Part shown: piece after piece, positions 537 to 21,281 of the stretch
How positions within the stretch are numbered: position 1 is the first letter of the stretch
How the letters are laid out: each line of letters starts with the position of its first letter
Assembly (NCBI GenBank): GCA_035765895.1
Contig: DASTWL010000069.1
Location: 1-56,463, forward strand
Direction: 5' to 3'
DNA length: 56,463 nucleotides
Origin: Verrucomicrobiia bacterium
GTDB taxonomy: Bacteria > Verrucomicrobiota > Verrucomicrobiia > Limisphaerales > DSYF01
Notes under the pieces: model-generated
Told to the model about the DNA's origin: nothing
What the model saw: only the letters and a program-made list of their open reading frames with translations
Databases searched by the model: none
Program-made: the position numbers and the translations under genes

Positions 537-877
537 AGGTGCGAGCGGTCTAGACAGTATGGCTTTCGTTGAAGGTGGAAGGGGTGTCTGCTCTCCGGAG
601 CAAACGTGGGTTGCGCCGCGGGAGCGGCGCCGAGCCACCCGTTGTGGGACGCACGCCCCAGACAACGCAGGCACGAAGCGCAAACACCATGAAGACCTAT
701 CTACTCCGCCCGGCCCCGCCCGTCCAGCGCCAAACCCGCCGCGCGGCCAAGCCCGCCGCGGACGTCAGCCTTGGCCGGCCGCTGCCGCCCGCCGCGCCCA
801 GCCCGAACTTTCAGGAAAAGAACTTGCCTTGAGTTTTAATTACGGTAATTTCAGTTCAGACAGAAATAAACGACACC
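537..877. other. Intergenic region with GC-rich repeat-like segment
   Basis: This 341-bp gap separates the minus-strand orphan from the GbsR gene. From about 597 to 672 it holds a dense GC-rich tract with internal self-complementarity (GCGCCGCGGGAGCGGCGCC), resembling dispersed intergenic palindromes seen in Verrucomicrobiota; that resemblance is from memory and unverified. A 47-codon frame at 689-832 (starting MKTYLLRPAPPVQ) is Pro/Arg-rich and unsupported. The last 55 bases hold the probable GbsR promoter. Confidence 0.4.
824..851 (+). promoter_or_regulatory. Candidate GbsR-gene promoter with 13-bp palindrome
   Basis: TTGCCT (824-829) and TAATTT (846-851) are separated by 16 bases and lie 26 bases before the ATG of the GbsR/MarR gene, so they read as a sigma-70-type promoter. 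The perfect odd palindrome AATTACGGTAATT (838-850) covers the spacer end and the -10 box. MarR/GbsR proteins usually bind such short inverted repeats in their own promoter, so autorepression is likely. The box and palindrome are seen; the regulator pairing is inferred. Confidence 0.5.
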
Positions 878-1414
878 ATGCCAAAGCTGAGTCCAGTCCA
901 AGAAAAGTTCATCCTGCACTGGGGCGAGATGGGCACCAAGTGGGGCATCAACCGCACCGTGGCGCAGATTCACGCGTTGTTGTTCATCGCCGAGGCGCCG
1001 CTCAATGCCGACGACCTGGTCGCGACGCTGTCCGTGGCCCGGTCCAACGTCAGCAGCAGCCTGAAGGAATTGCAGGGCTGGGGCATCGTGCGCCGCGTCC
1101 ATGTCATGGGCGACAAGCGGGATCATTTTGAAAGCATGAAGGACGTGTGGGAGATGTTCCGCGTCGTGCTCGACGAGCGCAAGAAGCGCGAGATCGACCC
1201 GACTATCGCCATGCTCCGCGAGTGCGTGGCCGAGGCGGAAAAGGACAAGGCGACCAACGCATACACCGAGCAGAAGCTGCGCGAGCTGGCGGATTTTTTC
1301 GAGACGACGACGGCCTGGTATGGCCAGATCCGTTCGTGGCCGACGGCGGCGCTGAGCAAGTTTGTGAAGGCCGGTGACAAGATCCGCAAGCTGCTGGGCA
1401 TCGGGGGGGACTGA
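878..1414 (+). CDS. GbsR/MarR family transcriptional regulator
   Basis: A 178-residue DNA-binding regulator of the GbsR branch of the MarR superfamily. The winged-helix domain spans about residues 15-105 (GTKWGINRTVAQIHALLF, then the recognition-helix region VARSNVSSSLKELQ and a wing with GIVRRVHVMGDKRDHF). The GbsR family shows exactly this opening, MGTKWGINRT. The C-terminal part is helical with many charges (DERKKREIDP) and probably forms the dimer interface; no ligand-binding domain is fused. The ATG at 878 follows a clear promoter-like region. It lies upstream of the DCC/DUF2071/epimerase genes on the same strand but is separated from them by about 200 bp containing a palindromic repeat, so it may be transcribed with them or alone. 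Its ligand cannot be read from sequence. Confidence 0.9.
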   Translation: MPKLSPVQEKFILHWGEMGTKWGINRTVAQIHALLFIAEAPLNADDLVATLSVARSNVSSSLKELQGWGIVRRVHVMGDKRDHFESMKDVWEMFRVVLDERKKREIDPTIAMLRECVAEAEKDKATNAYTEQKLRELADFFETTTAWYGQIRSWPTAALSKFVKAGDKIRKLLGIGGD

Positions 1415-1495
1415 TGAATAGCCACGTAACAGCAGCATTGATTTCGTCCCATGGTGAACTTCCGCCTCCAACTTTGGATGCGCATTGGAGTAGTG

Positions 1496-1583
1496 AACCC
1501 ACCCCTGGCCCCTCCCAAGAGGGGAACGCGCATGCGATCCCCACCAGTCTGGCTCCCCTCCCAGGAGGGGGCAGGGGTGGGTT
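1496..1583. repeat. Intergenic inverted repeat (30-bp arms)
   Basis: Arms at 1496-1525 and 1554-1583 are reverse complements at about 27 of 30 positions. They start with AACCCACCCCTG and end with CAGGGGTGGGTT, and each arm holds its own smaller C-rich/G-rich hairpin (CCTCCC...GGGG). The 28-base centre carries GCATGC. It lies between the GbsR gene and the DCC gene. The form matches REP/MITE-like non-autonomous palindromes; no coding capacity. Confidence 0.75.
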
Positions 1584-1622
1584 GGCTCCCTGGAATGAAC
1601 ATTTTTTTGAGACCAATTTTCT

Positions 1623-2060
1623 GTGAATACCGAAATGCCAGTAAATGACGCCAGTGCGCGAGGCCGGGTGTTTTACGACGCCGAGTGCCGGTTCTGCGTC
1701 GCCGGCCGGCGGCGCTGGGGCGGGCTGTTCGAGCGGCGCGGGTTTGCCTGGGTGCCGCTGCAAACGCCGGGCACGGCGGCGCGGCTGGGCATCACGGAAA
1801 ACCAGTTGAGGGCGGAAATGTGGCTGCAACGGGCGGATGGTCGCACGTTCAGCGGCGTCGGAGCCTGGAGCGAATTACTGCGCCGCGTGTGGTGGTTGTG
1901 GCCGCTCGGAATGCTGATCGCCCTGCCGGGTTTCAATGCCTTGGCGCGTCTCCTCTACCGCTGGATTGCGCGGAACCGTCATTGTCTGGGCGGGAGTTGC
2001 CAAATTCATTCGCATCCACATCCGACACATCGCCACAGCGCCTTTCTGGAATTGCCATGA
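1623..2060 (+). CDS. DCC-family thiol-disulfide oxidoreductase (DUF393)
   Basis: A 145-residue member of the DCC1-like thiol-disulfide oxidoreductase family, named for the motif Asp-x-x-Cys-x-x-Cys, seen here as YDAECRFC at residues 18-25. The rest follows the family: GVGAWSELLRRVWWLWPLG, then a hydrophobic helix (about 97-117) and a C-terminal second cysteine pair (RHCLGGSC). The frame opens with GTG at 1623, with an ATG four codons later at 1635 as an alternative. The stop overlaps the next start (ATGA), so it is translationally coupled to the DUF2071 gene. Family members are thought to handle thiol redox; the substrate is unknown. With the epimerase and DUF2071 genes it forms a conserved-looking group. 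Confidence 0.9.
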   Translation: MNTEMPVNDASARGRVFYDAECRFCVAGRRRWGGLFERRGFAWVPLQTPGTAARLGITENQLRAEMWLQRADGRTFSGVGAWSELLRRVWWLWPLGMLIALPGFNALARLLYRWIARNRHCLGGSCQIHSHPHPTHRHSAFLELP

Positions 2061-2848
2061 CGACGAACCTCCCGCCCACCGGAGCCCCGCGCCTTCGCCG
2101 GTCATGCCTGGCGGTGCCGGAGGTGCGGGGGGTGATTGAGCGGCGCGTGCTGGTCAACTTTCGTTGCGCGCCGGCAACCGTGGCCGCGCTGCTGCCGCCG
2201 CCGTTCCGGCCCAAACTTGTGGGCGGATTTGCCGTGGCGGGCATCTGCCTCATCCGTCTCACGGCGCTGCGCCCGGCCGGTTTGCCCGCCAGCATCGGGC
2301 TCACCTCCGAGAATGCGGCCCATCGCATTGCCGTGGAATGGGAGGAAAACGGCATCGTGCGCGAGGGCGTGTTCATTCCGCGGCGCGATACGGATTCGTG
2401 GTTGAACCGGCTGGCGGGCGGGCGCCTGTTTCCGGGCGTCCATCAGGCCGCAGCCTTTCGGGTTTGGGAAACCGGCCAGCGGTTCAAGCTGGAAATGCGC
2501 GGCGCGGACGGCACGACATTCGTCCGTGTCTTGGCTCGGTTGACCGACACGCTGCCGCGCGGGTCGGTGTTTGGCACGCTGGCGGGAGCGACGCGCTTCT
2601 TTCAGGCGGGCGCGTTGGGCTGGTCGGCGCGCGCCACGACGGGCGCGTTCGATGGCCTCGAACTGGACTGCGACCTGGGGCACCTGGAGCCGCTCGCCGT
2701 CGAGCATGTCGCCTCGAGTTTCTTCAACGACGCAAGATATTTCCCGCCCGGCACGGCGGAGTTCGACAGCGCGTTTCTCATGCGCAACATCGCGCACCGT
2801 TGGATCGGGCGCGGCCGGATGGAATGCGGGGGAGGCGCGGCACCATGA
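2057..2848 (+). CDS. DUF2071 (YqjF-like) protein, first copy
   Basis: A 263-residue protein starting at the ATG that overlaps the DCC stop (ATGA at 2057-2060). The sequence (FRCAPATVAALLPPPFRPK, later FVRVLARLTDTLPRGSVFG) resembles the DUF2071/YqjF family, related in fold to acetoacetate decarboxylase, but only moderately; it is the more divergent of the two copies here. No signal peptide or membrane helix. The frame extends upstream to 1685, but that part is a shadow of the DCC gene. The stop overlaps the epimerase ATG (ATGA at 2845-2848). Function unknown; the operon setting suggests a shared small-molecule or redox role with the SDR39U1 epimerase. Confidence 0.75.
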   Translation: MTTNLPPTGAPRLRRSCLAVPEVRGVIERRVLVNFRCAPATVAALLPPPFRPKLVGGFAVAGICLIRLTALRPAGLPASIGLTSENAAHRIAVEWEENGIVREGVFIPRRDTDSWLNRLAGGRLFPGVHQAAAFRVWETGQRFKLEMRGADGTTFVRVLARLTDTLPRGSVFGTLAGATRFFQAGALGWSARATTGAFDGLELDCDLGHLEPLAVEHVASSFFNDARYFPPGTAEFDSAFLMRNIAHRWIGRGRMECGGGAAP

Positions 2849-3801
2849 ACCGGCGCATCGTCCTCGCAGGCGGCCGCGGCTTTCTGGGACAGGCGCTGGC
2901 GCGGTGGTTTGGCGGGCGCGGCTGGGAGGTTGTGATGCTGACGCGCACGCCGGCGCGGCGAACGGATGGCGTGTGCGAAGTGGGCTGGGACGGTGAAACG
3001 GTGGCCGATTGGGCCGCCACGTTGGACGGAGCGGCCGCGGTGGTCAACCTCGCGGGCAAGTCGGTGAATTGCCGTTACCACGAACGCAACCGCCGCGAAA
3101 TTCTGGCCTCCCGGCTTGGTCCCACGCGCGTTATCGGTGCCGCCCTCGCGCAATGCACCACGCCGCCACGCGTGTGGCTGAACGCCAGCACGGCGACGAT
3201 CTACCAGCACACGTTGGGTCCGGCGTGGGACGAGGCGGGTGAAGTCGGTGGGACGCCGGAGGCAAAGGACGAATTTCCCGTTGAAGTCGCCACGGCCTGG
3301 GAGCGGGAATTTTTCGATGCGCCGACACCAAACACGCGCAAGGTAGCGCTGCGCACGGCGATGGTGCTGGGCCGCGGGCGCAACAGCGTGTTCCCGATGT
3401 TGCGGCGGTTGACGCGGCTGGGGCTCGGCGGGCGCATGGGCAGTGGCCGGCAGTTTGTTTCGTGGATTCACGAGGCGGATTTCTGCCGGGCCGTGGAATG
3501 GCTCATCGCGCACGGCGAAATCGACGGAGTCGTCAACGTGGCGGCGCCGAATCCACTGACCAATGCGGCGATGATGCGGACGTTCCGCGAATTGTGCGGC
3601 ATGCCGTTCGGGTTGCCCGCGACAAACTGGATGCTGGAGATCGGCGCGGTTTTGCTGCGCACGGAAACGGAACTCATCCTCAAGAGCCGCCGCGTCGTTC
3701 CGGGGCGTTTGCTGGCCGGCGGGTTTGCGTTTCACTTTCCGACGTTCTGCGAGGCGGCAGGGGATCTGATGGGGCTCAAACCAAGGCAGCCAATGGCTTG
3801 A
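2845..3801 (+). CDS. TIGR01777/SDR39U1 family NAD(P)-dependent epimerase
   Basis: A 318-residue atypical extended short-chain dehydrogenase of the TIGR01777 (SDR39U1, YfcH-like) family. The N-terminal Rossmann fold shows GGRGFLG at residues 9-15. Family landmarks follow: VVNLAGKSVNCRY, NASTATIYQHT, EEFFDAPT-type linker, LRTAMVLGRG, and WIHEADFCRAVEWL. The usual YxxxK pair of classical SDRs is not obvious, as expected for this atypical family, so catalytic activity is uncertain. The start ATG overlaps the previous stop; the frame open from 2164 is only a shadow of the DUF2071 gene. The second DUF2071 gene follows after nine bases. The substrate is unknown. Confidence 0.92.
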   Translation: MNRRIVLAGGRGFLGQALARWFGGRGWEVVMLTRTPARRTDGVCEVGWDGETVADWAATLDGAAAVVNLAGKSVNCRYHERNRREILASRLGPTRVIGAALAQCTTPPRVWLNASTATIYQHTLGPAWDEAGEVGGTPEAKDEFPVEVATAWEREFFDAPTPNTRKVALRTAMVLGRGRNSVFPMLRRLTRLGLGGRMGSGRQFVSWIHEADFCRAVEWLIAHGEIDGVVNVAAPNPLTNAAMMRTFRELCGMPFGLPATNWMLEIGAVLLRTETELILKSRRVVPGRLLAGGFAFHFPTFCEAAGDLMGLKPRQPMA

Positions 3802-3810
3802 ACGGCACTG

Positions 3811-4647
3811 ATGTCAAATGTCATGCCCACCCAAAATCAAAACATCAGCCAAGCCGCCCGCGCACGGATGCTTTCGCTGCCCCGCGAACCGTTCCTCGTC
3901 GCGGATTGGCTGAACGTGATGATGATTCACCTCGAAGTGGACGCGGACACGTTGCAGGCGGTCACACCGTTTCAACTCGATCTCTGGCAGGGGCGCGCGT
4001 TTGTGACGCTGGTGGCGTTCACGCTGCGCGGGATGCATCCGCGCTTGGGCGGGCGATGGAGCCGATGGCTTTTCCGTCCGCTCGCGACGCATCGCTTCCT
4101 GAACGTGCGCACTTACGTCAAGCAGGACGGCGAAGCCGGGATTCATTTTCTCGCCGAGTGGCTGGACAGCCGGCTGGCAGTGGAACTTGGGCCGCAGGTT
4201 TTTGGGCTGCCGTATCGGCTTGGGCGCATTGAATATCAAAACGAATGGCAGTCAGGCGGGTTGCGCGGGCGGGTGGCGGATGCAGGGACGGGCGCGGTGC
4301 TGGCGTATCAAGCCGGAGCGGAGCCCGGCGCTCCGGCGTTGAGGGAGTGCGCCCCCGGCTCGCTGGACGAGTGGTTAATGGAACGTTACACCGCATTCAA
4401 TTGCATGCGCGGCCGGCGGTTGTTCTTTCGCGTCTGGCATGAACCCTGGCCGCAAGTCCCGGTCCTCGTCCGTCTCGCGGATCGCCGTCTGTTGACGGCT
4501 CATTGGCCGCTTTTTCATGACGCGCCGGTGGCGGGGGCCAATTACAGCCCCGGCGTGCGCGCGGTCTGGATGGGCTGGCCGCACCGGCTTGGTTGCGGGA
4601 CTTTCAGGCTGCCAACTATGGCTTGTCGGCCCGGGGCGGTTCGCTAA
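3811..4647 (+). CDS. YqjF family protein (DUF2071), second copy
   Basis: A 278-residue protein with typical DUF2071/YqjF features: an N-terminal ADWLNVMMIHLEVDADTLQ, then FVTLVAFTLRGMHPR, FLNVRTYVK and GIHFLAEWLDSRLAVELGPQVFGLPY, and a C-terminal ERYTAFNCMRGRRLFFRVWHEPWP. The start at 3811 is nine bases after the epimerase stop; a second ATG lies at 3823. No export signal. It ends the five-gene group; asnS starts 15 bases later and may be co-transcribed. Two DUF2071 proteins of different length in one operon suggest distinct ligands or a heteromeric complex (inference). Biochemical function unknown. Confidence 0.85.
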   Translation: MSNVMPTQNQNISQAARARMLSLPREPFLVADWLNVMMIHLEVDADTLQAVTPFQLDLWQGRAFVTLVAFTLRGMHPRLGGRWSRWLFRPLATHRFLNVRTYVKQDGEAGIHFLAEWLDSRLAVELGPQVFGLPYRLGRIEYQNEWQSGGLRGRVADAGTGAVLAYQAGAEPGAPALRECAPGSLDEWLMERYTAFNCMRGRRLFFRVWHEPWPQVPVLVRLADRRLLTAHWPLFHDAPVAGANYSPGVRAVWMGWPHRLGCGTFRLPTMACRPGAVR

Positions 4648-4662
4648 GACTTTGCGCACCTG

Positions 4663-6024
4663 ATGCGCACACTGATCAAACACGCCCTTGCCGCGACGGA
4701 GCCGCGCGAAACCATCACGCTTGGCGGCTGGGTTCGCACGCGTCGAGACAACAAAGGCTTCAGCTTTCTCGAACTCAACGACGGCTCCTGCCTCGCCAGC
4801 ATTCAAGTGGTGGCCGATGCGGGCATTCCCGGCTACGAGCGCATCGCGGAATTCACCACCGGGGCCTCGGCCATCGTCGAAGGCGCGCTCGTGGCGTCCC
4901 CGGCGGCGGGGCAGAAATGGGAGGTGAAGGCCGCACACATCCGGCTCATCGGCGGTGCGGACGCCAGCTATCCGTTGCAGAAGAAGGGGCACACGCTGGA
5001 GTTTCTGCGGAGCATTGCGCATTTGCGGCCGCGCTCGAACCTGTTTGGCGCCGTCTTTCGCACGCGCAGCCAGCTGGCTTACGCGGTGCACGAGTTCTTT
5101 CAGCGCCGCGACTTTGTTTACGTCCACACGCCGGTCATCACGGCGAGCGATTGCGAGGGCGCGGGTGAGATGTTCCGCGTCACAACGCTCAAGGGCAACA
5201 TCGACGATCAGCCGACGACGGATTTCTTCGGGAAAAAGGCTTATCTCACCGTGAGCGGCCAGCTCGAAGGCGAGACGTTTGCGTGCGCGTTGTCGAACAT
5301 TTACACGTTCGGCCCGACGTTTCGCGCGGAGAACTCGAACACGGCCCGGCACGCGGCGGAGTTTTGGATGATCGAGCCGGAGATGGCCTTCTGCGACTTG
5401 CGGGGCGACATGGATCTGGCCGAGGAGTTCATCAAGTCACTCGCCAAATATGCGCTGGAGCATTGCGCCGAGGACCTGGCGTTCTTCGCGAAGTTCGTGG
5501 ACAAGGGCCTGCACGAGCGGCTGAAGTTCGTCGTCGAACGGCCGTTTGTGCGTGTGCCCTACACCGAGGCGGTGGAAATTCTCACGCAGAGCGGGAAGAA
5601 GTTCGAGTTCCCGGTGGCTTACGGCCAGAACCTGCAATCCGAGCACGAGCGCTTCCTGACCGAGGAGCATTTCAAATCGCCGACGACGGTTTTCAATTAC
5701 CCGCGCGAGATCAAGCCGTTCTACATGCGCGTGAACGACGACGGCAAAACGGTCACGGCGATGGATGTGCTGGTGCCGGGCATTGGCGAGGTGATTGGCG
5801 GCGCGCAGCGCGAGGAGCGGCCCGACGTGCTGGAGCAGCAGATGCAGCACCACAAGCTGAATCCCGCCGATTACTGGTGGTATGCCGAGCTGCGGAAATA
5901 CGGCACCGTGCCGCACGCGGGCTTCGGCCTGGGGTTTGAGCGGCTGATCATGTTCCTGACCGGTGTGGCCAACATTCGCGACGTGATTCCGTTCGCGCGC
6001 ACCCCCGGCAATGCCGAGTTTTGA
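4663..6024 (+). CDS. asnS: Asparagine--tRNA ligase
   Basis: Charges tRNA-Asn with asparagine in the cytoplasm. The 453-residue length is usual for bacterial AsnRS. An OB-fold anticodon-binding domain covers about residues 10-115 ([20 protein letters not shown]), followed by the class II core: motif 1 around [20 protein letters not shown], motif 2 around [20 protein letters not shown], and motif 3 near the C terminus ([15 protein letters not shown]). The [13 protein letters not shown] stretch is typical of AsnRS rather than AspRS, as is the absence of a GAD insertion. The ATG at 4663 gives the correct N terminus. The downstream phosphatase frame overlaps the stop only if its upstream start is used. 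Confidence 0.97.
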
Positions 6025-6065
6025 AATTGAAACGGCGGGCGACCCGCGCTAAACCGGGTCAACCC

Positions 6066-6890
6066 ATGAACCCATCCGGCCGCCAGCCCGTCAGTCGTCG
6101 CGCCGCCCTTGTGCGGCTGGGCCGGCTGGGGCTGATGGCGGGCGTGCTGGGCCCGCTGGCGCTGCGGAGCTGGGCGAAGCCGGCGAAGTCCGAATTCAAA
6201 TTCCTCGTCGTCAATGACACCCACTACCTGACGGATGAGTGCGGGCGTTATCTGGCCGGGCTCGTGCGCCAGATGAACGGGGAAGGAGCGGACTTCGTGT
6301 TGCACGCGGGCGATCTCACCGACCAGGGCGAGCCCGCGCATCTGACGGCGGTGCGGAAGATTTTTGCCGGGCTGGACGGATCGTTTTATCCGGTCATTGG
6401 CAATCATGATTACCTCACACCGAAGGACCGGCACGGCTACACGGCCGCGTTTCCGCGCCGATTGAACTACTCGTTTGAACGCCACGGCTGGCAGTTCATC
6501 GGCCTCGATACCACGCAGGGTCAGGAGTATTTCAACACCCGCATCCAGCCGGCGACGTTCAAGGCGCTGGCCGGCATCCAGCGGCGTCTCGACAAGGCCA
6601 AACCGACGGTGGTGTTCACGCATTTTCCGCTCTGTGCCAGCGTGCGCACGCGACCCGTCAACGCCGACGATTTGCTGGTGCAATTCGACGGCTGGAACGT
6701 GAGGGCGATGTTCAGCGGCCACTTCCACGGCTTCACCGAATGCGAGCGCGGCGCGGCCCGGCTGACCACCGATCGCTGCTGCTCGCTCAAGCGGAACAAC
6801 CACGACGGCGCCAGGGAAAAGGGCTACTTCGTCTGCACCGCGAAGGCGGGGGAATTGGCCCGCCAGTTCGTCGAATACAAGGGCGTCTGA
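6066..6890 (+). CDS. Secreted calcineurin-like metallophosphoesterase
   Basis: A 274-residue metallophosphoesterase with all core motifs in order: NDTHY (D-x-H), HAGDLTD (GD-x-x-D), IGNHDY (GNH-D/E), FTHFPL and SGHFHGF (GH-x-H), the ligands of a dimetal centre. The N terminus has a Tat-type twin-arginine signal (VSRRAALVRLGRLG) followed by a hydrophobic stretch and AKPAKS, so the enzyme is probably exported folded with metal in place. I chose the ATG at 6066, because the frame from 6021 would put 15 basic residues before the signal and overlap asnS. The substrate (phosphomonoester, phosphodiester or pyrophosphate) cannot be told from sequence. The ABC importer genes follow after 74 bases. Confidence 0.88.
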   Translation: MNPSGRQPVSRRAALVRLGRLGLMAGVLGPLALRSWAKPAKSEFKFLVVNDTHYLTDECGRYLAGLVRQMNGEGADFVLHAGDLTDQGEPAHLTAVRKIFAGLDGSFYPVIGNHDYLTPKDRHGYTAAFPRRLNYSFERHGWQFIGLDTTQGQEYFNTRIQPATFKALAGIQRRLDKAKPTVVFTHFPLCASVRTRPVNADDLLVQFDGWNVRAMFSGHFHGFTECERGAARLTTDRCCSLKRNNHDGAREKGYFVCTAKAGELARQFVEYKGV

Positions 6891-16055: not shown

Positions 16056-19000
16056 ATGAAACCAACCCACTCCTCATCCGACCATCACCATTCTCTTGCA
16101 CGACTGTTTTCCCGTCTGCGGTTCATCACTCTCAGCTTGTGTCTCCTCTGCTCATGGCGGGCGGCGGCCGGCGGCACGTGGACGCCGCTGGCCCATCCCG
16201 CACCGGGCGGGATTTCCTTGATGCTGCTGCTGTCGGACGGCACGGTCATGTGCCAGAACGGCGGCAACACAACGTGGTATCGACTCACGCCGGACATTCA
16301 CGGCAGTTACGTTAACGGCACGTGGACGACGCTCGCGCCGATGCATGATTCGCGGCGGTATTATGGTTCGCAGGTGTTGCGCGATGGCCGGGTTTATGTC
16401 GCCGGCGGCGAATACGGCACCGGCGGCGGCAAGATGGAGCTTTATGATCCGTTGGCGGACGCGTGGACGCCACCCATGACGGTGCCGAACGGTCCGATTG
16501 ACAGTTGCACCGAGACGTTGCCGGACGGAAATGTGCTGCAAGGCAATGCGGGCCGGGACACGCGGATTTACGATGTGACGAACAACAGTTATTCGTCCGC
16601 CATCATGTCCCTGGGCGGTCAAGACGAGCCCTCGTGGGTGAAGCTGCAAGATGGGAGTTTTCTGACCCTGACGGACACGAACTCCGAACGGTTTGTTCCG
16701 TCGCTGAACCAATGGGTCGCCGACGGCAACGTGCCGACGACGCTCTTTGGCTACGGCTATGAAATCGGCGCGGCCTTGCTGCTGCCCGATGGCAAAGTCT
16801 TTTACATCGGGGGCACCAGCCATACGGCGATTTACACGCCCTGGACGAACATTGCTGGGGTTTACACGCCGGCCGGCACGACCAATGCCGGCACCTGGGT
16901 GGCCGGACCGGACATCCCTAACAACGATGGCGCGGTGGATGCGCCGGCGGCCATGCTGGTCAACGGCAAAATCCTTTGCTGCATGGCCAATACAACCACC
17001 AACTTCGGCTCGGCCTCGACATTTTACGAATATGACTACACGGCCAACAGCTTCACCCAGCTCAACGGTCCCACCGGCACGGCCGAGTTCGGGGCGGTGG
17101 CCTACGGCTGCACGATGCTGGATTTGCCGGATGGCACGGTGCTGTTGTCCAGCGGCAGCAGTCAGGTTTATTCCTACCAGCCCGACAGCGCTCCGTTGGC
17201 GGGTGCGGCGCCGGCGATTCTTTCAGTGACCACGAACCTGGACGGCTCGTTTCACGTGACCGGCACGCAGCTCAACGGCATTTCCGAAGGCGCGCATTAC
17301 GGGGACGATTCACAGATGAATTCGGATTATCCGGTCGCGCGCATCACGAATGGCGTGGGCAACGTGCTCTACTGTCGCACCTACAATTGGAGCACCTGCA
17401 ACCTCATGACCGGGACGAATGTGGTGACCACGGAAATGACGCTGCCGGCCGGCTTGCTGGCTGGAACGTATCCACTCGTGGTGACGGCGAACGGCATCGC
17501 CTCCGCGCCCTTCCTGCTGAGCATTCCTGGAACCCCGTTGCCGCCCGTGGCCAATTTGATGTTCACCGCCAAATCTCCGAATCAAATGGCCTTCCAGTGG
17601 AGTGCGATCGGATTGACGGAAGCGGGCTATGTGGTGCAACGCTCCACCGACGGAATTAATTTCAGCACGCTGGCCAGTCTGGGGCTCAACGTGACGAACT
17701 ACACAGACAACACGGTTACGCCGCTGGAGCAGTATTATTACCGCGTGATGGGCACCAACGCCTACGGCCTGGGCAAGGCGGCGATGATTTTTGCCGCCTC
17801 ACCGGCGTTGGTGAGCGTGCCTGCGCCGTGGCAGTCGGACGATGTCGGCGCCGTGCAGGGCAGCGGAGCGGTGGGCACGAACGGCGGCACGTTTACGGTC
17901 ATCGCTTCAGGCACCGGCATTGGCGCGGATGACGATCAGTTCCGCTTTGTGTATCAGCCGGTCGTGGGTGATGTGACCATCACCGCGCGCATCACGGGCA
18001 GCCAGAACTCCGGCAGCAACGCGCTCGCCGGTGTGATGATTCGCAGCAGTCTGGGATCGGACGTCGCCGGGGCGCTCATTGGTTATGATGCCGGCACCCA
18101 AAGCACGGTGTTCGAGCACCGGGCCGCCGCAGCCAAACAGGCGACCTACGGATTGAAAGTTTACGGCGAACCAGACGAGGATCTCAGTCGCAACGCAGGC
18201 GTCGCCATCCAATCGTTTGGGGCCGAGGCCGCCAGCACCCCGCTCTGGGTGCGACTCGTGCGCAATGGCAACGTGATCACGGGCTACACTTCGACCGACG
18301 GCACGAACTGGACCCAAGCCGGCGTCACGACGCTTGACGCGCTGGCGCCTGTCGTGGAAGTCGGCCTGGCGGTCAGCAGCGGAACCTACAATTTGCTGAA
18401 CACCTCGACCTTCGACAACGTCACGGTCACGGGAATGCCCGCGGTGATTCCGCCCCCGCTCGCCGAATGGAAACTGGACGAAACCAGCGGGACGGCGGCC
18501 AAAGATGCGGTGGACAGCTTTGACGGTCTTTACGAAAATATGGTGCTGAATCAACCGGGCGCCACCTTGAACACCGGCACAGCCGTGAGTTTCAACGGAA
18601 CCAACGCGGATGTTTCCATTCCGGCCTTGGGCCTGACGACCACGAATTTCACCATCACCGGCTGGGTGAAGCGCACCGGCGCCCAAACATCCTTCTCCGG
18701 GCTGGTCTTCAGCCGCAACGCCGGCAATCGCGGCGCGGGCCTGATGCTGGCCAACAACGGTGCGAACGTGGAACTGCGTTACAGTTGGAACGACGTCAGC
18801 AGCGAATGGAACGCGGCCACCGGCTTGAATCTGCCGGACGGACAGTGGGCGTTTATCGCACTCACAATCAGTCCGACGCGTGCCATTGTTTACCTGGCCA
18901 CGAATGGCGTGGTCAGCGCCGTCACCAACAACACCGCCCCCAGTGCGCTCACGTTGAGTGGGAACCTTTATTTTGGCTACGATGCCGCATCCTCCTCGCG

Positions 19001-21281
19001 CCGTTTGGTCGGGCAGATGGACGAAGTGGCCGTGTATAACCGAACCCTGACCGGGACGCAGATTGCCCAGCTTGCCGGCGCGCCCACCATTGTGGTTGCC
19101 TCGCCGGCGAACGGGTCCGAGTTTGCGACCACGGACAACATTCCCGTGACGTGCAACGTGGCGGGCACCAACGGACACACCGTCAACCTCGTGCAGATCC
19201 TGAGCAATGGGACGCCCGTGGGGCAGTCGAGTGTGCCGCCCTACACCGTGAATTTGAACAATCTGCCCGTGGGACCCAACGTGCTGACGGCGCGGTTGTT
19301 CTACGATTCCGGGCTCGCCGTGGTTTCCACGCCGGTCAGCTTGAGCATCACGTCGGGCTTTGCGGTGCCGTATCCGGGCCTGCTCGCCGCCTACGGGCCG
19401 GCCAGCTACTGGCGTTTCGGCGAAACCAATGGCAGCACAACGGCCGTGGACGCCATCAACGGCCACAACGGAACGGTGCAGGGGAGCGGCCTCGCGCTTG
19501 GCGTGACGGGTCCGCGCCCGCCCGCCTATCCGCAGTTTGACGCCACCAACACGGCCGCGCAGTTCAATGGAACGAGCAATTGGATCGCGTGCGGCACAGC
19601 CGCGTCGCTGGCGGGCACGGACGATTTCACCCTGGCCGCCTGGATCAAAACCACGGCCACGAGTGCCGGGGTGATTTTGCAACAGCGGGACGGTGGTTTT
19701 AACGGCGAATATGGCCTGTCCGTCAATGCGAATGGCACGGTGAACTTCTACCTGTATGGCAACAGCGCCTACCAATACAGCTTTGCCACTACCCAAACGG
19801 TCAACAACGGCCTGTGGCACTTCATCGTCGCCGAACGGAGCGGCGGCACCAATGGTTACCTCTACATTGACGGCGTGCGCGCGGCGTCGGCGACCGGCAC
19901 CGCCCGTGCCTTGGATGGTTCCATCGGCACTTACATCGGCCGGGACGTGCGCGATGGCGTCAACAACTTCAACGGGCAGATTGATGAAGTGGCCATCTTC
20001 GAGCGGGCCTTGACGGCGACGGAAATTGCCCAGCTCGCGAACACGAATCAATCGGTGCAGCAGTTCACCCTGGCCTACCTCGCGGGCGCCAACGGCACCC
20101 TGTCCGGCAATACCAACCAGACGGTCAATGACGGTGGCACCGGCACCGCCGTGACCGCCGTCCCCAACACGGGATACCATTTCGCCGGTTGGAGCGACGG
20201 TTCCCAGGCCAATCCGCGCACGGACAGCAACGTGACGAACAACCTCAGCGTCACGGCCAGCTTTGCCATCAACACCTACACCCTGACTTACACCGCGGGC
20301 GCCCACGGTTCTCTCAGCGGCACCCGTCCGCAAACGGTGAACTACGGCGCCAGCGGAACAGCGGTTACGGCCGTTCCTGACACGGGCTATTACTTCGCCA
20401 ATTGGAGCGATGGTTCAACGGCCAATCCACGGGCCGATGCGAACGTGACGAGCAACGTCAATGTGACGGCCTACTTTGCCAACGGGCTGCCGGCTCCGTG
20501 GGTGACCAACAAGATTGGCACCGTGGCCGCGGCCACGACGGCGAGCTATGCGAATGGATCCTTCACCGTTGCCGGTGCCGGAGCCAACATCTCCGGCCGG
20601 AGCGACAATTTCTGGTTCGTCAGCCAGCCGTGGACAGGTGATGTCACGATCACCGCCCGGCTCGTCAGCGAACAGAACACCGGTTCGGCCGCACTCGCCG
20701 GCGTCATGTTGCGCGAAATCACCGCGAGCGGTTCGCGTTGCGTGTTTATGGGGCTGAATCCGAATGGCGGCGCCCAGTGGGTGCGGCGAACGAAGACCGG
20801 CAACGCCAGTTCGAGCACGACGGTTTCCGGACCAACGGCGGCGTATTGGGTGCGCCTGACCCGCAGCAGCAACACGCTGGCCGGCTATCTTTCGGCCGAC
20901 GGGGCGACCTGGACGCAGGTGGCCAGCGTCACGTTCAGCCTGAATACGAGTTGCAGCGTCGGCATGGCCGTTTGTTCTGGTTCCAGTTCCACGCTGAACA
21001 CGTCCGTGTTCGATTCGGTGAGCGTGACCAACGCCGTCCTGACGCCCGCTGCCCAGGTTCTGCCGCTGGCACCGGCTGAACTCGGCCCGATCACATTTGA
21101 TGCCGATACGGTCCGCTTTGCCGTGACCGGGGAGACCAACAGCGTCTGGCAACTGGAGGAATCCGGCGACGGTGTAACGTGGAGCACGTTGCAATCCGTG
21201 ACGCTCATCAATGGGACGGTTCAGCAAAGCGAAGCGGATGACGCCCGGCCAATGCGGCTGTTCCGGCTTTCTGCGCCGTGA
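16056..21281 (+). CDS. Giant secreted kelch/LamG/InlB-repeat protein
   Basis: A 1741-residue exported multidomain protein. A signal peptide (LSLCLLCSWRAAA) is followed by a kelch-type beta-propeller like galactose oxidase (about 40-380). Next come an Ig-like domain of the DUF1929 kind (about 381-490), an FN3 domain (about 495-580), a DUF1349-like beta-sandwich (about 587-790), LamG domain 1 (about 800-1005), an Ig-like linker (about 1011-1100) and LamG domain 2 (about 1105-1325). Two tandem InlB-type repeats follow (about 1335-1475, each with the GYxFAxWSDGS motif), then a second DUF1349-like domain (about 1476-1655) and a C-terminal Ig-like domain. The propeller keeps a Cys (DSCTETLPDG) near the position of the galactose oxidase thioether Cys, but I cannot identify its partner Tyr, so oxidase activity is doubtful. 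More likely a glycan-binding surface protein. No PEP-CTERM or other sorting tail. Monocistronic, between two terminators. Confidence 0.85.
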   Translation: MKPTHSSSDHHHSLARLFSRLRFITLSLCLLCSWRAAAGGTWTPLAHPAPGGISLMLLLSDGTVMCQNGGNTTWYRLTPDIHGSYVNGTWTTLAPMHDSRRYYGSQVLRDGRVYVAGGEYGTGGGKMELYDPLADAWTPPMTVPNGPIDSCTETLPDGNVLQGNAGRDTRIYDVTNNSYSSAIMSLGGQDEPSWVKLQDGSFLTLTDTNSERFVPSLNQWVADGNVPTTLFGYGYEIGAALLLPDGKVFYIGGTSHTAIYTPWTNIAGVYTPAGTTNAGTWVAGPDIPNNDGAVDAPAAMLVNGKILCCMANTTTNFGSASTFYEYDYTANSFTQLNGPTGTAEFGAVAYGCTMLDLPDGTVLLSSGSSQVYSYQPDSAPLAGAAPAILSVTTNLDGSFHVTGTQLNGISEGAHYGDDSQMNSDYPVARITNGVGNVLYCRTYNWSTCNLMTGTNVVTTEMTLPAGLLAGTYPLVVTANGIASAPFLLSIPGTPLPPVANLMFTAKSPNQMAFQWSAIGLTEAGYVVQRSTDGINFSTLASLGLNVTNYTDNTVTPLEQYYYRVMGTNAYGLGKAAMIFAASPALVSVPAPWQSDDVGAVQGSGAVGTNGGTFTVIASGTGIGADDDQFRFVYQPVVGDVTITARITGSQNSGSNALAGVMIRSSLGSDVAGALIGYDAGTQSTVFEHRAAAAKQATYGLKVYGEPDEDLSRNAGVAIQSFGAEAASTPLWVRLVRNGNVITGYTSTDGTNWTQAGVTTLDALAPVVEVGLAVSSGTYNLLNTSTFDNVTVTGMPAVIPPPLAEWKLDETSGTAAKDAVDSFDGLYENMVLNQPGATLNTGTAVSFNGTNADVSIPALGLTTTNFTITGWVKRTGAQTSFSGLVFSRNAGNRGAGLMLANNGANVELRYSWNDVSSEWNAATGLNLPDGQWAFIALTISPTRAIVYLATNGVVSAVTNNTAPSALTLSGNLYFGYDAASSSRRLVGQMDEVAVYNRTLTGTQIAQLAGAPTIVVASPANGSEFATTDNIPVTCNVAGTNGHTVNLVQILSNGTPVGQSSVPPYTVNLNNLPVGPNVLTARLFYDSGLAVVSTPVSLSITSGFAVPYPGLLAAYGPASYWRFGETNGSTTAVDAINGHNGTVQGSGLALGVTGPRPPAYPQFDATNTAAQFNGTSNWIACGTAASLAGTDDFTLAAWIKTTATSAGVILQQRDGGFNGEYGLSVNANGTVNFYLYGNSAYQYSFATTQTVNNGLWHFIVAERSGGTNGYLYIDGVRAASATGTARALDGSIGTYIGRDVRDGVNNFNGQIDEVAIFERALTATEIAQLANTNQSVQQFTLAYLAGANGTLSGNTNQTVNDGGTGTAVTAVPNTGYHFAGWSDGSQANPRTDSNVTNNLSVTASFAINTYTLTYTAGAHGSLSGTRPQTVNYGASGTAVTAVPDTGYYFANWSDGSTANPRADANVTSNVNVTAYFANGLPAPWVTNKIGTVAAATTASYANGSFTVAGAGANISGRSDNFWFVSQPWTGDVTITARLVSEQNTGSAALAGVMLREITASGSRCVFMGLNPNGGAQWVRRTKTGNASSSTTVSGPTAAYWVRLTRSSNTLAGYLSADGATWTQVASVTFSLNTSCSVGMAVCSGSSSTLNTSVFDSVSVTNAVLTPAAQVLPLAPAELGPITFDADTVRFAVTGETNSVWQLEESGDGVTWSTLQSVTLINGTVQQSEADDARPMRLFRLSAP

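Follow-up and report, generated by a model that had tools for sequence, protein, structure and literature searches.

A GbsR-type regulator and one predicted operator accompany a variable set of thiol, NAD(P) and membrane protein genes across bacterial phyla

Computational analysis of a 56,463-nucleotide stretch from a Verrucomicrobiia bacterium of the order Limisphaerales (contig DASTWL010000069.1 of assembly GCA_035765895.1, which is C69 of our genome G000, 4.64 Mb in 96 contigs; hereafter the window) centered on a plus-strand locus at 878-4647 encoding a GbsR/MarR-type regulator, a DCC1-like thiol-disulfide oxidoreductase, two DUF2071 proteins (DUF2071a and DUF2071b) and an SDR39U1-type oxidoreductase of the short-chain dehydrogenase/reductase (SDR) class. 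An original prediction made from the letters of the window had described these five genes, four of them tightly coupled, as a module, and all five open reading frames were found. Comparison of the regulator's relatives and their flanking DNA indicates that the locus very probably belongs to a modular, GbsR-linked regulon that crosses phyla and shares one operator. As the best explanation overall, to which we assign a probability of about 0.6, we propose an autorepressed modular unit for a membrane-associated NADPH/thiol pathway acting on a hydrophobic small molecule.

A conserved inverted repeat at gbsR and DCC

The element common to these loci is an inverted repeat of the form TTTCWG-N6-CAGAAA, whose window copy (operator 1, TTTCAG-TTCAGA-CAGAAA) ends 10 bp 5′ of the gbsR ATG, over the -10 box. 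With up to three mismatches, the consensus ATTTCTGTnnnnACAGAAAT occurs upstream of gbsR in all 28 loci from the same order, 11 times exactly; the consensus was drawn up after these 28 upstream regions had been viewed, so they provide no independent test. Independent of it are 75 of 80 loci picked by their GbsR protein alone, together with the distant sites described below. After duplicates sharing the same last 100 residues were removed (109 to 104), 102 distinct loci had enough upstream DNA, and 98 of these carry the consensus with at most three mismatches of 16 (26 exact), the remaining four having four mismatches, while the reversed pattern was found upstream of gbsR in 0 of 102 at the same threshold. 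Its placement relative to the promoter recurs as well, with the TTG of a -35 box preceding the operator by 24 or 25 bases in 61 of the 98 loci (38 + 23). Within the window alone, two matches at up to three mismatches compare with 0.11 expected.

The original prediction had instead drawn attention to a 13-bp palindrome in the regulator's promoter. The palindrome, AATTACGGTAATT, is indeed present (0.03 matches expected in the window with one mismatch allowed), but we rejected it as the operator, as it is exact in only one of the 28 order loci, the window itself, whereas the repeat that it overlaps is conserved. Six further loci of the 28 match it with up to three mismatches at about the same place.

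A second site between gbsR and the next gene was found at up to three mismatches in 52 of 104 loci, against 0 of 104 for the reversed pattern; the background for the wording of this site was drawn from the same loci, true sites included. Its frequent form within the order is ATTTCTGTGAATACnGAAAT. In a recount at the same threshold, base 7 of the site begins a GTG in 28 of 53 second sites, and in 23 of the 53 this GTG opens a frame of at least 80 aa, the 145-aa DCC protein of the window included; we therefore take the DCC start as 1623 rather than 1635. The idea of a start-codon operator whatever gene follows was rejected, since in L036, L039, L044 and L045, for example, no frame of 80 aa or more begins at the GTG (in L045 the contig runs out). 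In L036, L039 and L044, operator 2 is kept although the GTG frame is shorter than 80 aa and the next gene is not DCC. Retention of the site even where no long frame starts at its GTG points to an operator and not merely to conserved coding sequence. In the window, 202 bp separate operator 2 from the gbsR stop, against 16–43 bp for most order loci with such a site, and the 208-bp gap between gbsR and DCC holds a dispersed repeat with 13 genome matches at up to one mismatch (reversed control, 0).

From this conservation we infer that the regulator is a DNA-binding repressor and that the locus would be a transcription unit silenced by its own product. A GbsR dimer would bind operator 1, over the -10 box, and also operator 2, over the DCC start codon, until a cellular signal releases it from the DNA, and repressor and module would then be made together. 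The module itself would be one assembly drawn from a pool of genes that share regulator and operator across several phyla.

Table 1 Features of the locus in the window, with the basis for each assignment
Feature	Position	Strand	Details and basis
-35-like TTGCCT of the gbsR promoter	824..829	+	Sequence; TTG position recurs among loci
Palindrome of the original prediction, AATTACGGTAATT	838..850		Between -35 and -10, runs into operator 1; not conserved
-10-like TAATTT	846..851	+	Overlaps operator 1 left arm, spacer 16 bp; sequence, putative placement
Operator 1 (predicted), ATTTCAGTTCAGACAGAAAT	848..867		One mismatch to ATTTCTGTnnnnACAGAAAT; conserved inverted repeat
GbsR/MarR-type regulator (P0001)	878..1414	+	178 aa, has Cys116
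Dispersed repeat (approximate extent)	1499..1600		Two CCCCTCCCARGAGGGG cores (1509-1525, 1555-1571); between gbsR and operator 2
Operator 2 (predicted), TTTTCTGTGAATACCGAAAT	1617..1636		Two mismatches, contains DCC GTG start; second-site conservation
DCC1-like thiol-disulfide oxidoreductase (PF04134)	1623..2060	+	145 aa from GTG
DUF2071a, divergent, acetoacetate-decarboxylase fold (predicted model)	2057..2848	+	263 aa
SDR39U1 / TIGR01777 NAD(P)-type oxidoreductase (P0004)	2845..3801	+	318 aa
DUF2071b	3811..4647	+	278 aa

A recurring gene pool and distant operator sites

The 80 loci chosen by GbsR protein alone are the best 80 of at least 571 relatives; five of them (L095, L099, L100, L113 and L124) duplicate L015, L025, L014, L021 and L044, leaving the 75 new ones. 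By record title, GbsR relatives span Verrucomicrobiota, Planctomycetota, Proteobacteria, Acidobacteriota and others, although L104, titled Acidobacteria, groups in the tree with relatives from the order. A module gene was counted when a hidden Markov model match above 25 bits lay on the same strand within 8 kb downstream, a rule that, in some loci of planctomycetes and Proteobacteria, lets in weak DCC matches (35–55 bits). At least one such gene follows gbsR in 70 of the 80 loci, in 65 of the 75 newly found ones, and in 62 of the 70 distinct loci whose downstream DNA reaches 5 kb or more, which bears out the module as a recurring neighborhood under a GbsR-type gene.

The composition of that neighborhood is variable. 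Across 109 gbsR genes, the pool comprises DCC (56), SDR39U1 (38), DUF2071b (28), a 141-aa membrane family (23), an SRPBCC (Polyketide_cyc2) membrane protein (17), a second SDR (14), DUF2071a (13, omitting the window copy, for which a longer overlapping frame was taken), a 136-aa membrane family (11) and a methyltransferase (3). The pairing of two DUF2071 genes, which the original prediction had put at the core, does not hold up as such: the two belong to distant subfamilies (hhalign probability 5.5%, so that a recent duplication is not supported), and DUF2071a is one of the less frequent families in the pool. Proteobacterial loci add DUF4166, DoxX_3 and DUF2269 to the pool, as in Duganella, where the order is gbsR, DCC, membrane protein, DUF4166, a transmembrane+SDR39U1 gene, SDR+DoxX_3 and DUF2269, and in Methylobacterium, where DUF4166 and then an SDR-DUF4166 fusion come after a GbsR of 185 aa whose operator is exact. 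The fusion protein, on a Methylobacterium oryzae plasmid (L178, 6286-8112), measures 608 aa and lies directly behind GbsR and DUF4166, and a single open reading frame in L126 (8736-9767) contains parts of DUF2071a and SDR39U1, either as a fusion or through an assembly error. A light/photolyase (LitR-like) module was also considered and dropped, as the 464-aa family at first taken for photolyase turned out to be membrane-bound and to carry a Polyketide_cyc2 domain.

Sites resembling the operator also occur away from gbsR. At up to two mismatches, the genome of the window contains three, namely the pair in the module and a third at C61:24528, against none for the reversed pattern; this third site lies 28 bp before a gene for a 136-aa membrane protein, which it may bring under the same control. 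Seven distant sites in the order were inspected among the matches listed, picked for zero or one mismatch or, in G042, as a lone two-mismatch site, and five of the seven head a 130–139-aa membrane family (profile 193–202 bits), in G000, G040, G048 and G042 and, behind the second SDR of the pool, in G008. In two genomes (L086, 6719-8164, and L087, 4532-5938), the 136-aa membrane gene with its operator has as neighbor a gene for a 468–481-aa protein with no meaningful Pfam match. In Proteobacteria, where the inspection left out the two-mismatch sites G060:C84:85289 and G062:C26:10691, Jeongeupia has an exact site ahead of a DCC gene (49.6 bits) on C17, a contig other than that of gbsR, an exact site in a gamma-proteobacterial metagenome-assembled genome heads transmembrane, SDR39U1 (TIGR01777, 345 bits) and DUF4166 genes, and a one-mismatch site in Chitinolyticbacter heads a transmembrane+SDR39U1 fusion (318 bits). 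None of four SDR39U1 genes examined in genomes that lack this GbsR has an operator within 900 bp upstream (best 7–8 mismatches).

These observations make it very improbable that the locus is a chance or hitch-hiking cluster of unrelated orphan genes beside a MarR gene. Variable gene order and content, and the loss of genes in a same-genus genome described below, would fit such a cluster, but it leaves the conservation of the operator across phyla unaccounted for and requires the distant sites ahead of the same families to be chance, while the reversed control gave none in the window's genome. The original prediction had named scattered genes in other genomes as the outcome that would speak against a module. 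Genes do join and leave the cluster, and to that extent a fixed module falls away; several of those found elsewhere carry the operator, and so the regulatory link stands.

Within the window, the predicted tight coupling is borne out by 4-bp overlaps (ATGA) at the DCC/DUF2071a and DUF2071a/SDR39U1 junctions and by a gap of 9 bp between SDR39U1 and DUF2071b. The asnS gene (4663-6024) starts 15 bp past DUF2071b, and co-transcription with the module is possible; in G001, a genome of the same genus, asnS also comes next after DCC, and in G028 it was not observed downstream of the module. At the G001 locus (L013; G001:C57, about 18276-19239), gbsR reads as three fragments that lie in different frames, DCC is intact at 72% identity and the two operators can still be recognized (two and one mismatches).

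The regulator, its relatives and the candidate signal

The regulator matches MarR_2 with 41.1 bits (cut-off 27), and its best solved relative by sequence is the GbsR-type structure 1ku9 (MJ223; profile E 5.4e-16). By profile and predicted model, it has the winged helix of MarR proteins together with C-terminal helices like those of MJ223, and Foldseek ranks 5jbr and 1ku9 first (E ~1e-6), with TM-scores of only 0.42–0.46 for a model of pLDDT 75. A single cysteine, Cys116, lies in the long helix 100–122 of this model and is kept in 93 of 104 relatives (109 before removal of identical rows). The four members of the GbsR family studied by 2018 are described as repressors, and groups with unassigned neighbors are noted, in the available text of PMC6207618.

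The nearest studied relative found is CydE of Alishewanella, a GbsR-type repressor of cydAB that, in the accessible portion of its report, binds the cydE promoter at two sites, one of them footprinted on TATTTCAGAAATTTCTGAAAGTTCA, TTTCAG-N6-CTGAAA (PMC6096048). This footprint shares the geometry TTTCWG-N6-CWGAAA with the window operator and is thus the best outside support for a GbsR-type binding site there, whereas the second footprinted site is unlike the window operator. A CydE-like respiratory or sulfate-response regulon, in which the repressor would sense sulfate or respiratory state and the module would support the quinone pool or electron transport, is accordingly an alternative, though an unlikely one. 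It gains from the common operator geometry and from the closeness of the Rhizobium and Pseudochrobactrum proteins (43–44% identity), with cydD and cytochrome bd genes behind gbsR in L177 and L179. The three CydE-type rows compared (L176, L177 and L179; L176 was placed by the tree alone, and Alishewanella CydE was not compared) nevertheless form a clade of their own (100/100) on a long branch (0.95) apart from the window, among weak deeper forks; unlike the window clade they lack Cys116, and their best sites are TTTCAG-N6-CTGAAA or near. The putative targets differ as well, being cydAB for CydE and DCC, SDR39U1, DUF2071 and membrane genes here: the window's five genes include no cyd gene, and no cyd protein was found among the seven proteins scanned from 878-6890.

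The osmostress repressors GbsR, OpuAR and CudC belong to the same family as the window protein, and CudC (NF047500) is its best NCBIfam match. At 49.8 bits, this match falls far below the curated cut-off of 218, the module contains no betaine or choline gene, and the osmostress-linked GbsR group is described from Firmicutes in the available part of PMC6207618; a regulon of this kind responding to choline or glycine betaine is therefore highly improbable.

Small MarR-type repressors such as YodB, CatR and MhqR control thiol and quinone stress genes, with DoxX-type targets among them, but they belong to other MarR branches with other operators and firmicute targets. For the window, the combination of one conserved regulator cysteine with NAD(P)-type SDRs and a thiol-disulfide protein hints at an oxidant or an electrophile, and a switch at Cys116 is our first, tentative guess for the signal. 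The main rival on this point keeps the same regulon and makes the repressor a ligand sensor that binds a substrate or product of the module, small-molecule binding being common among MarR proteins, with Cys116 structural; we regard this as quite possible, though short of probable. Known signals of GbsR-type proteins are choline and glycine betaine, and sulfate for CydE (available text of PMC6207618 and PMC6096048), and 11 of the 104 relatives do without Cys116, which fits a ligand sensor. Against it, no ligand is known, and a cysteine that is near-invariant in the clade and absent from the three CydE-type rows demands a reason.

No published description of the module was found, in keeping with its original characterization as undescribed, in a search whose coverage left subscription journals largely outside. 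The available parts of two papers that mention DUF393/DCC (a heliorhodopsin transcript and a proteomics table) contain no account of it, and neither does the available text on the DUF2071 fold and on GbsR-type repressors. PA3458 of Pseudomonas was considered as a related regulon and rejected, as its motif differs and GbsR is not mentioned in the accessible portion of its report (PMC8070244).

Products of the module and their possible chemistry

The DCC protein matches PF04134 with 69.1 bits (cut-off 27.8) and contains DAECRFC, an instance of the DxxCxxC motif. SDR39U1 scores 223.4 bits on TIGR01777 (cut-off 207.35), carries a C-terminal DUF1731 match (40.5 bits) and aligns with the human SDR39U1 structure 4b4o at E 2.5e-40. 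Within the SDR39U1/TIGR01777 family, which includes YfcH and ThyD, the window member misses the ThyD cut-off (144.6 bits against 400) and differs by sitting in a GbsR-linked set. DUF2071b matches PF09844 with 114.3 bits against a gathering score of 27, which DUF2071a misses at 24.6, while its orthologue in L018 reaches 29.3. The DUF2071a model (pLDDT 86.6) has an acetoacetate decarboxylase (ADC) fold by a wide margin, with VIA Z values of 20.0 to 3c8w and 19.2 to Swit_4259 and of 7.3 for the next other fold. The fold is common to the ADC superfamily (ADC, Swit_4259, MppR; Z 18.6–20.0) at 7–18% identity, although the Schiff-base lysine of ADC is reported, in the available text of PMC4520260, as not conserved in DUF2071 (PF09844). 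Among nine DUF2071a sequences, no lysine occurs in the invariant columns, in an alignment where the Schiff-base position was not mapped residue by residue. Sequence searches of DCC, DUF2071a and DUF2071b against solved structures gave chance rows only.

Barrels that might accommodate hydrophobic ligands (the DUF2071 ADC fold and SRPBCC), together with NAD(P) oxidoreductases and small membrane proteins, lead us to propose, tentatively, a reductive step at the membrane with a hydrophobic small molecule as substrate. The products would act jointly at the membrane on a lipid-, quinone- or isoprenoid-like molecule, in a reductive or detoxifying role. The redox or small-molecule pathway of the original prediction thus remains plausible, given the DCC protein, the NAD(P)-type SDRs and the repressor's cysteine, with a putative substrate of the kind just proposed. 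In its most specific form, the proposal is a speculative one: a one-cysteine GbsR repressor, present across phyla, governing a plug-in kit of membrane-linked NADPH/thiol proteins whose task, when oxidants or electrophiles stress the cell, would be the repair or modification of a hydrophobic molecule.

Several observations weigh against the proposed unit. Ten of the 80 GbsR-picked loci have no module gene by the matching rule, two of them with less than 50 bp of downstream DNA and one, L118, with a DCC match excluded by the offset rule. The same-genus genome G001 lacks DUF2071a, SDR39U1 and DUF2071b, its DCC adjoining asnS, and with gbsR fragmented there, either cells can do without the module or the assembly contains errors. 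Among the distant sites, those in G034 and G037 (one mismatch each) head no module gene, in genomes with only a 39% GbsR match (G034) or none (G037); the site in G063:C2 (two mismatches) also heads none, in a genome with four reversed-control matches; and the membrane gene of G042 has an operator, yet no GbsR was found in that genome, which is 86% complete. Conversely, SDR39U1 genes in G032:C51, where the regulator is present, and near a contig start in G029:C145 have no operator (best 6 mismatches), which argues against an absolute rule. The wide variation in gene content makes one fixed pathway unlikely, the reported loss of the Schiff-base lysine means that the DUF2071 barrels need not be enzymes, Cys116, absent from 11 of the 104 relatives, may be structural, and the GbsR tree is weakly supported at its deep forks.

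If the proposed regulon is correct, families without a function, namely DUF2071, DCC/DUF393, SDR39U1, DUF4166, DUF2269 and membrane families that match no Pfam entry, are tied together by one operator and regulator present in several phyla. The speculative kit would, moreover, place SDR39U1-type enzymes, DUF2071, DUF4166 and DUF2269 in a regulated context for the first time, and in part of the loci, the window included, a single DNA word would serve both as the second repressor site and as the point where translation of the first structural gene begins. SDR39U1 has a human counterpart that, to our knowledge, has no assigned function, and shared regulation makes the function of the set testable. 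A de-repressed cultured beta-proteobacterium (Duganella, Jeongeupia or Chitinolyticbacter) would be expected to express the whole set, opening its chemistry to metabolomics.

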